A DNA stretch of 24,968 bases from a virus. Under the pieces are notes generated by a model. The model ran no database searches, had not been told where the DNA came from, and worked only from the letters and a program-made list of their open reading frames with translations. Positions 46-22,916 of this stretch are shown here, in pieces. Where the stretch lies: positions 1-24,968 of IMG/VR virus record IMGVR_UViG_3300032083_002719. One strand, 5' to 3'. The position numbers and the translations under genes are program-made. Position 1 is the stretch's first letter. Every line of letters begins with the position of its first letter.

Positions 46-3000
46 CTATACTATGTATTTACCCGACAGAGTAGCAGAAAGACTATTAGTGAGTGTGGTT
101 CCGGCAACACCAACAACAATCGTATCATTTGTTGCAAGATATTTTGGTTTCTCTAAAATCTCAACCACACTGTTTTTAGGTATTGTTAAATTATACACCA
201 AGTATCCTTGTCTGACACCTGTAGTTAAAATACCACCAACACTTCCTCCTCGATAGATTGATACTGATGCATCAACATCAAGTATCAAATCATAATTACA
301 TAGACGAATTGATTGTAAGACTGATGGATTTGTAGTTGATGTGAAGAGTTCTGTTCCTGCTGTTGTTACAATTGTTGCTCCTGTTCCAATGTAATCAGTA
401 TCAGTTTTTTCGGAATAAACAATAAAGGAATCTAATCCATTATTAATACCAGTTGCATCTGTTCCCACACCAGCAAATGCTTGGAAGTTCAAAATGTCTG
501 ATGGATTTGCAATGATTGGTTGATCTAAGAGTTCTAATGCACCCTGATAAGGAATTATAACTCTTTGTGATGTTGGAACATTTTCTCCACCATCAAAGTC
601 ATGTCTTGATGTGAAATAAAGATTTGTATTATAGATATTTGTTACTTGAATAGACTCAATAACATAACTCTTACCTGCTGTTGCTGGGAATGTGTATGCA
701 ATTCCAGGTCCAATAAAGATGTCGTTGTTTGCTTGAGATGTAGAAAGTCCTGCCTGTGCAGTTCCAATACCACTACCAACTGAAACATAAATTGATGTTG
801 TAATTCCAGTATCAAAAGTACCTGAACCTCCTCCTCCTCCTCCTGTTGGTGCTGCCCAAACAGGAACTCCTCCAGAAACAGTTAATACGGAACTAGCAGA
901 ACCTACTGTGAGTTTAGATAGTGTATTTGCTGCCGATGAATAAAGAATGTCACCAGTTGCATAAGTAGTGTTTCCAGTTCCACCATAAAGTTCATCAAGA
1001 ACACCACTATTAATGTCTGATGCATTAAATGCTTCAAGTTCCGTTGCAGTGAAAGCAATAATAGAAATTGATAAACCGCCAGCTGGTGCTGTTGTGAATG
1101 TAATTTGTGTTCCTGATACTGTGTAATCAGTAATTGGTTCTTGTACTACACCACCAAGAACAACACGAAGTGATTGTGCATTTACTGGAGTGTATGCAAC
1201 AGCAGATTTTGTAAGATTAAATGTTACTATAATACCGTCAAAAGATCCTCCGATGTCATCAAGGATATCAATTACTGATCTCCCCCCATCAATCCAAGAA
1301 ACACCAATTCCAGCAACATTAGACAATACCTGACTGTCTGTTCCTGGTGATCCATTAGAATCATAAATGGAAGCACCGATTGCTATATTATTTTGGAATG
1401 TAGAAACACCAGTTACATTTAGAGTTCCATTGACATCGAGAGATGATGTTGGATTTGTAGTTGCAATACCAACATTCCCACCATAAAGTGCCAACTGAAT
1501 TGTGCCATCAGCATCTACATCAATACTTGGGAATCCAGAAACATCATTAACTGAGAAGATACTTCCAGAAGTTAGGTTATTAGTAACAGAGAATAATTGA
1601 CCTTCAGAACCTTGAATGTCAAGGGCAGTAATTCCAGCACCAACATCTATTGAAAGTTTTGCTTCTGGATTTGTGGTTCCAATACCCACATTTGAAGTGG
1701 TGCTAATACCTGCTTCATAAGATTCCCAAAGAGAATCTCCACCACTACCACTCTCAATTGAAACATCAATTGTCTTAGTTCCTGCATTATAATTAAATGT
1801 ATTTCCAGCACCGATAAAGTTAATTGCAGTTACAACACCAGTTGTTTGTTCTATACCACCAGATTGAATACCAATGTTGAATCCACCAGTAGCACTTACG
1901 AAACCACCAACAGTTAAATCTCCAGTAGATGGATTATAAGAAATTCCACCATCAGTATAAAGACTTTCATACTGAGCTGGGGTATTATTACTGTCTACAA
2001 AAGTTGGATAGAAGGATGCTGCAGTAGATGTATCCGCTGTTGCAATCTTAACTGCAACATCAGCAGTGATACCTGTTATACCACTACCATCCCCGTAGAA
2101 GGTGTATCCTACCCCTGCAGTGATGTCATTTGCAGTAATACCACCATCAGCATCCCTCTTTACAATTTTATTTGATGTTGCTGCTGTAGATGAATCAACG
2201 CTAATTGTAATTCCAGAACTACCATTGTAAGTAGTTCCAGAACTATAAAGAACATCAGTTCCTCTTGTTAAGTCTGATAAATTACTTCCTAAAGAAATTC
2301 CAGAAATTGTTGAGTTTACTAACTTATCATTAGCAATTGTTCCTGTAGTAATATCTCCATCGACAATAGAACCAGAAAGATTTAATTTGGAATAATTAAT
2401 ATTTGCAGAATTAGATATGTCATTATTAACGATTGTAAGATTATCAATCATTCCAGTAGTAATTATACCAGTGCTATTAGTGGAAACCAAAGTACCAGTT
2501 CCAGTTGGTACTGTTTGAGTTCCACTATTACTAATAGATGTAATAACTGGTGATGTTAAAGTCTTGTTCGTTAAAGTAACTGAATTATTCAGAGTTGCAA
2601 AGTCATCATCACTCAGTGCAGTATTAAACTCTGCTGTAGTTCCACTTAATGTATTATTGGAAAGATTGATAGTTTTGGTCGTTAGTGTTTGACTATCAGT
2701 AGTTCCTACAATAGATCCAGTTGGAGCAGATTTTCCATCAAGTAACTTGGCACTTAAGTTTTCAACTGTAGTTTGAGATTGAACAATAAATGGTGCTGTT
2801 CCTGATGTTACTTGAGATTCAATCTGACCATTAACAGATAACTTAGCGAGATTAGTTGAGGTGCCAATACCTACGTTTCCAAATTCTCTATAGATATCAC
2901 TTCCAGTAGCATCTTCCCATTGCTGTAATTCTACATCTACAAGAAGAGAACCATTTTGATAATAAGCAGTTGCATTAACAGTATCACCAATACTTACACT

Positions 3001-8401: not shown

Positions 8402-8409
8402 TATTTATA
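8402..8409 (-). promoter_or_regulatory. Consensus late promoter TATAAATA
   Basis: Exact T4-type late promoter octamer on the minus strand, 40 bases upstream of the 846-aa structural gene and in the 53-bp gap after the 549-aa gene. Confidence 0.7.
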
Positions 8410-17689: not shown

Positions 17690-18012
17690 TTTTTCTCCTC
17701 TTCATCTTTTGGTTTAGGAACAGGAACTGTTACTGTTGTTTTTTGTGTCCCTCCACCATTTCCATTAGACTTTGATGGTGTGACACCAAAAGTCGCCAAA
17801 GTTCCCGTGAAGACGCTGGCAATAAAAGTAGGGTCAATTTTTTGCTGAGGTATTCCTGGAATTGAAACATAGTTTAAAGTTAAGATTGCACCCGTCCATG
17901 TCAATACAATTAATCTAACCAAGCTTGAAATTCCTTCTTCATGCCAATGGAATCCATCATCATCATGATCTTTCTTCTTTTTTGGAAGCATTGACCTGAT
18001 AGTTTTAATCAT
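17686..18012 (-). CDS. Holin-like two-segment membrane protein (108 aa)
   Basis: A charged N-terminus (MLPKKKKDHDDDGFHWHEEG) is followed by two hydrophobic segments (SLVRLIVLTWTGAILTLNYV, ~30-49; TFIASVFTGTLATFGV, ~62-77) and a soluble, strongly charged tail with alternating Thr-Val and Lys-Glu (PKPKDEEEKK). Size, two segments and charged tail fit a small phage holin, and the cassette contains a lysozyme upstream, but no holin family is recognisable with certainty. The first ATG (18012) is only three bases after a late motif; the in-frame ATG at 17991, preceded by AGGTC and 24 bases from the motif, is an attractive alternative start giving 101 aa. Confidence 0.6.
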   Translation of the reverse strand: MIKTIRSMLPKKKKDHDDDGFHWHEEGISSLVRLIVLTWTGAILTLNYVSIPGIPQQKIDPTFIASVFTGTLATFGVTPSKSNGNGGGTQKTTVTVPVPKPKDEEEKK

Positions 18013-21596: not shown

Positions 21597-21621
21597 AAAA
21601 AAAGGAGTGCCGTCGCACTCC
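21597..21621 (-). terminator. Strong intrinsic terminator after the beta-barrel gene
   Basis: On the minus strand, GGAGTGC (21621-21615), loop GACG, GCACTCC (21610-21604), then seven T. A 7-bp GC-rich stem plus T tract placed 33 bases after the beta-barrel stop makes this a clear Rho-independent terminator. Confidence 0.85.
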
Positions 21622-21653
21622 CAGTATAGCATCTAGATGTTTACTTGATTAGA

Positions 21654-22016
21654 TCAGAAGTTATACTTCAGACCTGCTTTAGTTCCGTAACCGGTGTCGT
21701 CATCACCAGTGATGAAAGAAACCTCACCATAGACACTCAGGGCATCCGTCAGTGAGACAGAAGCGCCACCCTTACCAGAGAACTCAACTTCGCTTTCAGC
21801 ACCGTCAGGGGAGACGAGAGCAGGACCACCTTGAATGTACCAAGCAGAAGATTCTCCCAAATCACCTTCATAACCAACGGCAAAGTCAGTAACGGTTCCA
21901 GAATAATCCGATCCAACAAAACCACTATTGGCTTCGACGTTGACGTAAGGACCTGCAAGGGCAGCACCAGCAGAGACGGAAAGTGCAGCAGTTGCTGCGA
22001 ATACAGATTTGATCAT
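21654..22016 (-). CDS. Small outer-membrane beta-barrel-like protein (120 aa)
   Basis: Signal peptide (MIKSVFAATAALSVSAGAAL-A, cleavage at ALA-GPYV), then ~99 residues of alternating strands (PYVNVEANSGFVGSDYSGTV, DFAVGYEGDLGESSAWYIQG, EVEFSGKGGASVSLTDALSV, YGEVSFITG) ending in GTKAGLKYNF. A terminal Phe after an alternating last strand is the recognition signal for outer-membrane barrel assembly. Size fits an 8-strand barrel of OmpA/OmpW-like fold. Cyanophages are known to carry small porin-like genes; the role may be altering host surface or transport, unproven. GC content looks higher than in the glycan genes upstream. Served by a dual early/late promoter and a ~150-base structured leader, and followed by a strong terminator, so it is monocistronic. 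Confidence 0.75.
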   Translation of the reverse strand: MIKSVFAATAALSVSAGAALAGPYVNVEANSGFVGSDYSGTVTDFAVGYEGDLGESSAWYIQGGPALVSPDGAESEVEFSGKGGASVSLTDALSVYGEVSFITGDDDTGYGTKAGLKYNF

Positions 22017-22172
22017 TTGTTAATACCTCGTAATTTTTACTTGCGGAATTTCACCCGCAGATGAAGGGGGAGTTCGACGTTCCCCGCATTTTTGTCATAA
22101 CATAACCAGGCAGCGAGTAATTGAGGCGTTCGGGTTTGTTACAGTTCGTGAAGCAGTTGCCTCCCGAACACT
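22017..22172 (-). ncRNA. Long structured 5' leader of the beta-barrel gene, candidate regulatory RNA
   Basis: About 155 bases, GC-richer than the surroundings, with several complementary pairs on the minus strand. GTTCGGG (22169-22163) pairs with CCCGAAC (22134-22128). GAGGC (22163-22159) can pair with GCCTC (22127-22123), giving an H-type pseudoknot. A competing GTTCG/CGAAC pairing uses 22148-22144. A GGGGA/TCCCC hairpin lies at 22085-22067, and TGCGG/CCGCA with an 8-base loop at 22059-22042. GAGG lies 11 bases before the ATG. A short frame opening MRGTSNSPFICG sits inside. I do not recognise a known riboswitch class; regulation is inferred from structure only. Confidence 0.45.
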
Positions 22173-22180
22173 TATTTATA
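22173..22180 (-). promoter_or_regulatory. Consensus late promoter TATAAATA before the beta-barrel gene
   Basis: Exact late octamer on the minus strand, sharing three bases with the -10 box of the sigma-70 promoter at 22178-22206, so the same start region could be read early by host sigma-70 and late by the phage sigma. Confidence 0.6.
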
Positions 22181-22206
22181 ATAACAGAAGATTAGAAGTT
22201 TGTCAA
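22178..22206 (-). promoter_or_regulatory. Sigma-70 promoter TTGACA-N17-TATTAT before the beta-barrel gene
   Basis: -35 TTGACA at 22206-22201 overlaps the stop codon of the upstream glycosyltransferase-like gene; 17-bp spacer; -10 TATTAT at 22183-22178. It insulates the beta-barrel gene from the glycan operon. Confidence 0.65.
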
Positions 22207-22916
22207 GGGGTTTCTCTCTTCTCTATTCGGTATGCCCTACCGTGCTCATCAAATCCATCAATATCAATGTAATTAGGTTCACCAGTAAAATTGTCTACTG
22301 GTGAAACGAGAAGATAAGGACCTGGAATTCTATCATCATTAGGATGATAAGTTCTAAAGTTGGTTGGATGGAAATGAATTGTAACTACTTTCTTTCCAGG
22401 ATTTCTGCATGTGTATCCAAGTTCTCTCATGTGATAAGTAATCTTATTATCACATCCAGGTTTACCCATTGTATAATTCATCTTTTCAGATACTGCAATC
22501 GGTGCCTTAAAAATCCAAGAGTCTTGTGATGCTGGATTTTCATAAGGTTCAATCTCCCAGTTCTTTCCATCACCAGTAGAAATTTCCCAACGACTTAATG
22601 CATAAAAAGTTTTATCCATGTTGATACTCTTAAAATACCTAAGAGTATCGTCAAAAATAATGTCGGCATTTGAGATCACACAAATTTCTCCCTTCAAGTT
22701 CTCATTACAAAACTTGAGGAGAGATTCATAAGTTGGCCTATCTTTATTAATTACCTTTTTAATCTTTGGGGAATCAAAATTAAGTTCAGTATCTTCTTCC
22801 ATAAAAAGATACACATTCTCAATTAAATCATTTCCGAGATTTTGATGAAGACAATACAAGTATTCACCATTCCTCATGTGATTTGAGGAAGTAAAATATT
22901 CTAATAGTAAGTTCAT
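22203..22916 (-). CDS. Glycosyltransferase-like protein (237 aa)
   Basis: The N-terminal LLLEYFTSSNHMRNGEYLYC and later YESLLKFCNENLKGEICVIS resemble the start of a nucleotide-sugar-binding fold. NADIIFDD (83-90) looks like the DXD-type metal/sugar-nucleotide site. SQDSWIFKAPI (130-140), GKPGCDNKI (151-159) and HFHPTNFRTY (181-190) are further conserved-looking polar clusters; the pattern SQDSWIF...PGCDN is seen in glycosyltransferase-like proteins of phages and bacteria. No membrane segment. Last gene of the glycan cassette, one base after the cupin stop, with AAAGG before the ATG. Substrate unknown; modification of host envelope or virion glycans is inferred from neighbours. Confidence 0.55.
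   Translation of the reverse strand: MNLLLEYFTSSNHMRNGEYLYCLHQNLGNDLIENVYLFMEEDTELNFDSPKIKKVINKDRPTYESLLKFCNENLKGEICVISNADIIFDDTLRYFKSINMDKTFYALSRWEISTGDGKNWEIEPYENPASQDSWIFKAPIAVSEKMNYTMGKPGCDNKITYHMRELGYTCRNPGKKVVTIHFHPTNFRTYHPNDDRIPGPYLLVSPVDNFTGEPNYIDIDGFDEHGRAYRIEKRETP

Follow-up and report, generated by a model that had tools for sequence, protein, structure and literature searches.

The 5' leader of the E. coli ompA gene carries stabiliser hairpins ahead of an outer-membrane-protein gene, and the leader described here is like it in having hairpins before such a gene and a ribosome site that is mostly open; no sequence relation between the two is known. Among phage RNAs, the manA and wcaG motifs (RF01745 and RF01761), known from marine metagenomes and cyanophages (PMC2864571), are likewise structured candidate cis-regulatory leaders in T4-like cyanophages, and the PhotoRC-II RNA (RF01717) of phage psbA is tied to one phage gene family, as is the two-hairpin (A+B) element that we report. 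While manA and wcaG are found 5' of metabolic genes of several kinds, the A+B element occurred ahead of one gene family only, and it would join them as another phage RNA family.

The element was found in the window, i.e. the whole 24,968-nt stretch of viral DNA that was analysed, the source of which is a T4-like marine cyanophage. The original prediction had proposed a riboswitch, thermosensor or small-RNA target in a long leader of this window and had suggested a comparison with Rfam. A search of the window and the related leaders with Rfam 15 gave no family at or above the gathering threshold, and at E values up to 10 only weak chance matches appeared. The A+B element thus differs from PhotoRC-II, which has no match in the window or the leaders, and from manA and wcaG in being without an Rfam match, though the same search detects manA in the related locus L345. 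This manA RNA lies at positions 245-432(+) of L345, about 1 kb 5' of the gene for the outer-membrane protein (OMP), and scored 191.9 bits. The A+B leader bears what we take to be a superficial resemblance to the glutamine riboswitches, in the order UUCAUC, stem, AAGUAA. It differs from them in having no enclosing P1 helix, and a glutamine riboswitch was rejected as a candidate, with neither glnA (RF01739) nor Downstream-peptide (RF01704) giving a model match even at E up to 10. The glnA RNA has been reported in cyanophages (PMC9964418). No earlier description of the A+B element was found in the largely open-access literature searched.

A conserved two-hairpin core before the OMP gene

The gene downstream of the leader, predicted to encode a beta-barrel surface protein, is indeed Phage_OMP, an outer-membrane protein of 120 aa (21654..22016, minus strand; PF24653, E 3e-49; phrog_417), and a terminator-like hairpin with a U-run follows it at 21603..21622 (-). 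The same ORF appears in other records as a member of the DUF680 / T4-GC 241 / PhCOG173 family, and the gene is present in 469 deposited phage records. The literature connects the family with host adaptation as well as phosphate limitation (PMC6224464, PMC3686209): a role in phosphate limitation has been suggested (PMC6224464), DUF680 genes are over-represented together with pstS genes at BATS (PMC3686209), and when lines of S-TIM4 were evolved on Synechococcus WH8102, mutations in the OMP gene, many of these disruptive, arose in essentially all phages (PMC6224464). Since mutations accumulate in the gene, it would appear to be costly, which makes a tight control of its dose plausible.

The start-proximal half of the leader, at 22037-22086 (-), holds the two-hairpin RNA element. 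Hairpin A (22067..22085, minus strand) reads GGGGA-ACGUCGAAC-UCCCC, and hairpin B with its conserved flanks (22040..22063, minus strand) reads CAUC-UGCGGG-UGAAAU-UCCGCA-AG(UAA); a Shine-Dalgarno-like GAGG follows at 22026..22029 (-). The original prediction had counted two further hairpins here, and these are present at 22085-22067 and 22059-22042, as is the 5' hairpin at 22169-22144. Its emphasis, however, was on the least conserved part of the leader, whereas the half adjoining the start codon is by far the most conserved. The relatives consisted of 80 viral contigs fetched by protein, a further 80 plus two genome contigs fetched by motif pattern, and 20 annotated phage regions. Across these the order is hairpin A, CAUC, hairpin B (UGYGGG...UCCRCA and variants) and AAGUAA, with the core ending mostly 17-24 nt 5' of the ATG; its conserved single strands are the loop GUCGA, CAUC and AAGUAA. 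The stem of hairpin A mostly has 5-7 pairs and occurs in 60 different versions among 166 leaders, while its loop is usually NNGUCGA (GUCGA or GUCGG in 129 of the 166). About a fifth of the leaders replace this loop with A-rich, tetraloop-like sequences of the ACAA/AAAA type (e.g. L021:986-1069), so the GUCGA loop is not strictly needed. Because the search pattern demanded hairpin B, this hairpin is over-regular in the 80 pattern-fetched contigs; the protein-fetched set is free of that bias.

The existence of a conserved RNA structure is almost certain, and the evidence for it is covariation, not single-sequence stability: the fold of the window's leader by itself is not unusually stable compared to shuffles (z = -1.04). 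In 18 trimmed sequences, counted on a plain MAFFT alignment, 97.2% of the cells were paired and 51 cells carried double changes against 15 in shuffles, the double changes falling at all six pairs of hairpin A and at three pairs of hairpin B. Hairpin A had been hidden from RNAalifold by misplaced MAFFT gaps and was recovered on the trimmed alignment. With 85 model-aligned sequences, a count that leans towards the model by construction, 98.8% of the cells were paired and 222 had double changes, where shuffles gave 56 (0 of 500 did as well), and slid controls on the same alignment dropped to about 60% pairing or less. The covariance model R1 finds both hairpins in the window, which was outside its seed, at 53.7 bits (E 5.9e-13). 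Compensatory changes in homologous leaders, set beforehand as the test of the prediction, are thus abundant for hairpins A and B, and the claim of a regulated structured leader gains support from them; a conserved structure with compensatory changes within a 5' leader, as expected of a cis-regulatory RNA, is present.

The element apparently stands, in marine cyanobacterial viruses, before this one outer-membrane-protein gene and nowhere else. Each of the 85 related loci searched had one R1 match, and eight complete phage genomes gave one strong match each, 5' of the OMP gene, the next best having an E of 0.005. In searches by pattern, where the protein was not used, 82 of 82 among the matches listed precede an OMP ORF. 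The element also occurs in the Prochlorococcus phages P-SSM2, MED4-213 and P-RSM6; it is absent from the OMP copies of the T7-like podoviruses S-RIP1 and 9515-10a, and from ACG-2014f. The idea of a host-genome feature was dropped, as a strict pattern run over 84,980 genomes had only two matches, both in metagenome-assembled contigs and both followed by the phage OMP gene. The two contigs, L090 and L091, are named Rhodobacteraceae and Lewinella and have the leader element and then the OMP gene; they are probably cyanophage contigs binned with bacteria. A weak second R1 match (20.5 bits, E 0.005) was seen in S-ShM2 (GU071096.1) at 17708-17753 (-), away from the OMP gene.

Promoters and upstream hairpins

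The original prediction of TTGACA-N17-TATTAT fused to the late octamer was found to match exactly. This composite early/late promoter (22173..22206, minus strand) consists of TTGACA at 22206-22201, TATTAT at 22183-22178 and the overlapping TATAAATA at 22180-22173, and it is the best sigma-70-like site in the region. Its -35 overlaps the 3' end of an upstream ORF of 237 aa (22203-22916, minus strand), the stop codon of which (22203) lies inside TTGACA; this ORF had no match in Pfam or PHROG. With two copies of TATAAATA in the whole window against 2.1 expected by chance, the octamer by itself is weak evidence, and it is the recurrence in relatives that counts: the composite arrangement is seen in about 50 of 165 related leaders. 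The sole other octamer of the window, at 8402, is separated from its ORF by about 41 bases. The distance from 22172 to the ATG at 22016 agrees with the predicted leader of about 155 nt. There is, in addition, a weak candidate for an inner extended -10, TGTTATGAC (22094..22102, minus strand), from which the RNA would start at about hairpin A. In the relatives an inner -10 is located 30-45 nt 5' of CATC in 74 of 165 leaders, compared to 8.7% of background stretches. The position of the promoter appears to shift among phages, while the candidate starts stay upstream of the A+B core, so that the core would lie within every predicted transcript.

Transcripts from the outer promoter would begin with the hairpin H1 (GUUCG.GAGGC/GCUUC.CGAAC; 22144..22169, minus strand), identified from the fold and the relatives. 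Of 95 leaders, 72% have, in varied sequences, a stem of at least 7 pairs just 3' of TATAAATA; among shuffles the share is 19%. Between H1 and the core, the comparison of relatives revealed an optional third hairpin, P0, that the original prediction had not mentioned (22099..22140, minus strand), with an outer helix AACAAACC/GGUU(A)UGUU, an inner GC/GC and an 11-nt loop CUCAAUUACUC, the conserved form of this loop being CUCAAYUACUC. P0 was seen in 44 distinct leaders including that of the window; the 11-nt loop follows CNCAAYUAHUY and the stems vary but stay complementary (GGUGC/GCACC, GAUCC/GGAUC, CCC/GGG, CUC/GAG). At the consensus level P0 is complementary to the stretch from hairpin B to the Shine-Dalgarno. 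A pairing of the P0 loop with the AAGUAA flank or the Shine-Dalgarno was nevertheless rejected as unsupported, because native partners did not outperform permuted ones (P = 0.62). The view of P0 as a promoter or regulon motif of phages in general was also discarded, its frequency elsewhere in phage genomes being that of the background. The loop presumably resembles that of the T4 gp43 operator, a likeness that was set aside, the motif not being enriched elsewhere. In leaders with P0 the extended -10 usually comes after it, at two discrete spacings of about 15 or 35 nt. The two distances differ by roughly two helical turns (e.g. L129, L201, L023, L025), and in the second of these classes the outer arm of P0 overlaps the -35.

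Alternative pairings and an attenuator-like leader

The mutually exclusive GTTCG(GG) pairings of the original prediction stand only in part. GTTCGGG/CCCGAAC is possible in the window, in competition with the 5' hairpin, but it is not conserved: of two close relatives that keep the 5' hairpin with changed bases, L004 is unable to form it and L165 retains just 4 pairs. Judged from these sequences, the alternative is limited to the window genome. Nor did the possible pseudoknot find support in the pairing tests of P0 and of the upstream strand with hairpin B, the latter being no better than shuffles in 100 leaders of the window type. This type has no U-run and no competing pairing above shuffles, such as an attenuator would have. 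Kissing of the self-complementary UCGA loops was dropped as an idea because many leaders replace the loop of hairpin A. As for the suggested thermosensor, it is disfavoured by the folds of the relatives, in which the Shine-Dalgarno and AUG region is largely open, with mean unpaired probabilities over 165 leaders of about 0.6 for the former and 0.8 for the latter; the window's own Shine-Dalgarno region is somewhat less open (0.37-0.49). The sequestration of the ribosome-binding site in a labile helix that marks an RNA thermosensor was thus not found, and with the site largely open, neither a thermosensor nor a simple masking switch is supported.

A conserved mutually exclusive pairing does exist, in other sequences, in the leaders of Prochlorococcus phages. 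A set of 111 distinct leaders, from P-SSM2, MED4-213, P-RSM6 and numerous contigs, has an upstream module D, AAGGACUCGAAAGAUCGUAACCCUGCGUAGAUG, whose CCCUGCG forms a duplex with the 5' arm of hairpin B (CGCAGGG). The mean energy of this duplex is -13.4 kcal/mol compared to -5.6 kcal/mol for shuffled strands, and when partners were permuted, 0 of 2000 sets were as good as the native one (z -4.8, a value that relatedness may inflate); hairpin B itself, as a positive control, gave -9.95 versus -9.06 with an s.d. of 0.13. Hairpin A sits inside the helix between D and B, and 3' of this helix comes a U-run, with at least 6 U among 8 residues in 86% of the 111 leaders against 1.1% of nearby control stretches. 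These leaders therefore have the stem, the U-run and the competing pairing of an attenuator, and, like known transcription attenuators, they have shared-strand helices and a G+C-rich stem; they differ in that the loop of the terminator contains the conserved hairpin A, and the window version has neither the U-run nor the upstream strand. By its sequence, the Prochlorococcus-phage leader has the anatomy of a transcription attenuator and looks like a stop/go switch. In folds up to the U-run, CCCU was in the long helix in 84 of 111 leaders and in an upstream hairpin in 26, while folds of the full leader favoured hairpin B in 70 cases and the long helix in the other 41. The 3' arm of hairpin B is made after the U-run, so the upstream hairpin, rather than hairpin B, is more likely to be the kinetic competitor of the long helix.

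Possible modes of action

Our best reading of these comparisons is that the A+B leaders form a gene-specific family of cis-acting structured leader RNAs controlling the cyanophage OMP gene, to which we assign a probability of about two in three (0.68). A regulatory role of the leader RNA is likely, and the virus seems to ration OMP through its own messenger RNA. The core would act after transcription initiation and set the amount of OMP; most likely, a factor or signal docks on it and alters how translation begins or how the mRNA decays. The window version would do so with neither a terminator nor an evident cover over the ribosome site; we infer the regulatory step of this type, since its leaders lack a terminator and alternative pairings of hairpin B do not exceed the chance level. 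In the Prochlorococcus-phage version the attenuator helix would compete with hairpin B and with the upstream hairpin, and that an arm of hairpin B is shared with the upstream strand supports the element being a regulatory device and not merely a structural one. A tentative extension, which we put forward as a possibility, is a sensory RNA family in which A+B together with D or P0 sense the state of the infected cell and set the dose of a costly OMP; Prochlorococcus phages would use attenuation to this end, and Synechococcus phages translation or decay.

The same hairpins could instead be a constitutive mRNA stabiliser or translation enhancer, protecting the 5' region or aiding ribosome loading with nothing being sensed. 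The placing of hairpin A where transcripts from the inner promoter are predicted to begin, the 5' hairpin after the late promoter in most leaders and the mostly open ribosome site all fit this account; we consider it rather unlikely, since simple protection would not require the conserved unpaired CAUC, AAGUAA and GUCGA, the G.U closing pair or the gene-specificity, and the Prochlorococcus type adds an attenuator. Conserved unpaired residues and two conserved structured modules before one gene, along with the attenuator form and its conserved upstream domain UCGAAAGAUCGUAA in Prochlorococcus phages, would also suit a metabolite- or ion-binding riboswitch. That this is the case seems unlikely, considering that the A+B core, at about 50 nt, is small and has no junction, that it has no Rfam relative and that no expression platform is visible in the window.

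The exposed conserved loops GUCGA and CUCAAYUACUC could pair with a small RNA, but sequences like the P0 loop are not enriched elsewhere in phage genomes and the Shine-Dalgarno is not consistently hidden, so a small-RNA target or an RNA thermosensor is improbable. Inverted repeats near promoters often bind proteins, and P0, which stands at either of two fixed distances from the inner -10 and whose outer arm can overlap the -35, might be taken for an operator or promoter part. An element acting as DNA is nonetheless highly improbable, as A+B lies inside the predicted transcript and the arms of A and P0 vary freely yet remain complementary, also by G-U pairs, a pattern not accounted for by sequence-specific binding to DNA. 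The unremarkable single-sequence folding is all that speaks for functionless chance hairpins, a notion that covariation refutes for A and B, and that the model match and the gene specificity make hardly credible.

A leader RNA before the OMP gene alone, with two wirings in related phages, offers a testable handle on how a host-envelope protein is metered. Extra copies of OMP adjoin pstS in Sf-FR1, Sf-FS3, S-SCSM1 and P-SSM2, and the first three have a single strong R1 match per genome despite the extra copy. The element separates the two copies in P-SSM2, where the paralogue next to pstS, PSSM2_247, is without A+B and the neighbouring copy has it. PSSM2_247 is the second Phage_OMP-type gene seen immediately 5' of pstS at L216:1753-2109, and such genes were also observed in L082, L083 and L087.
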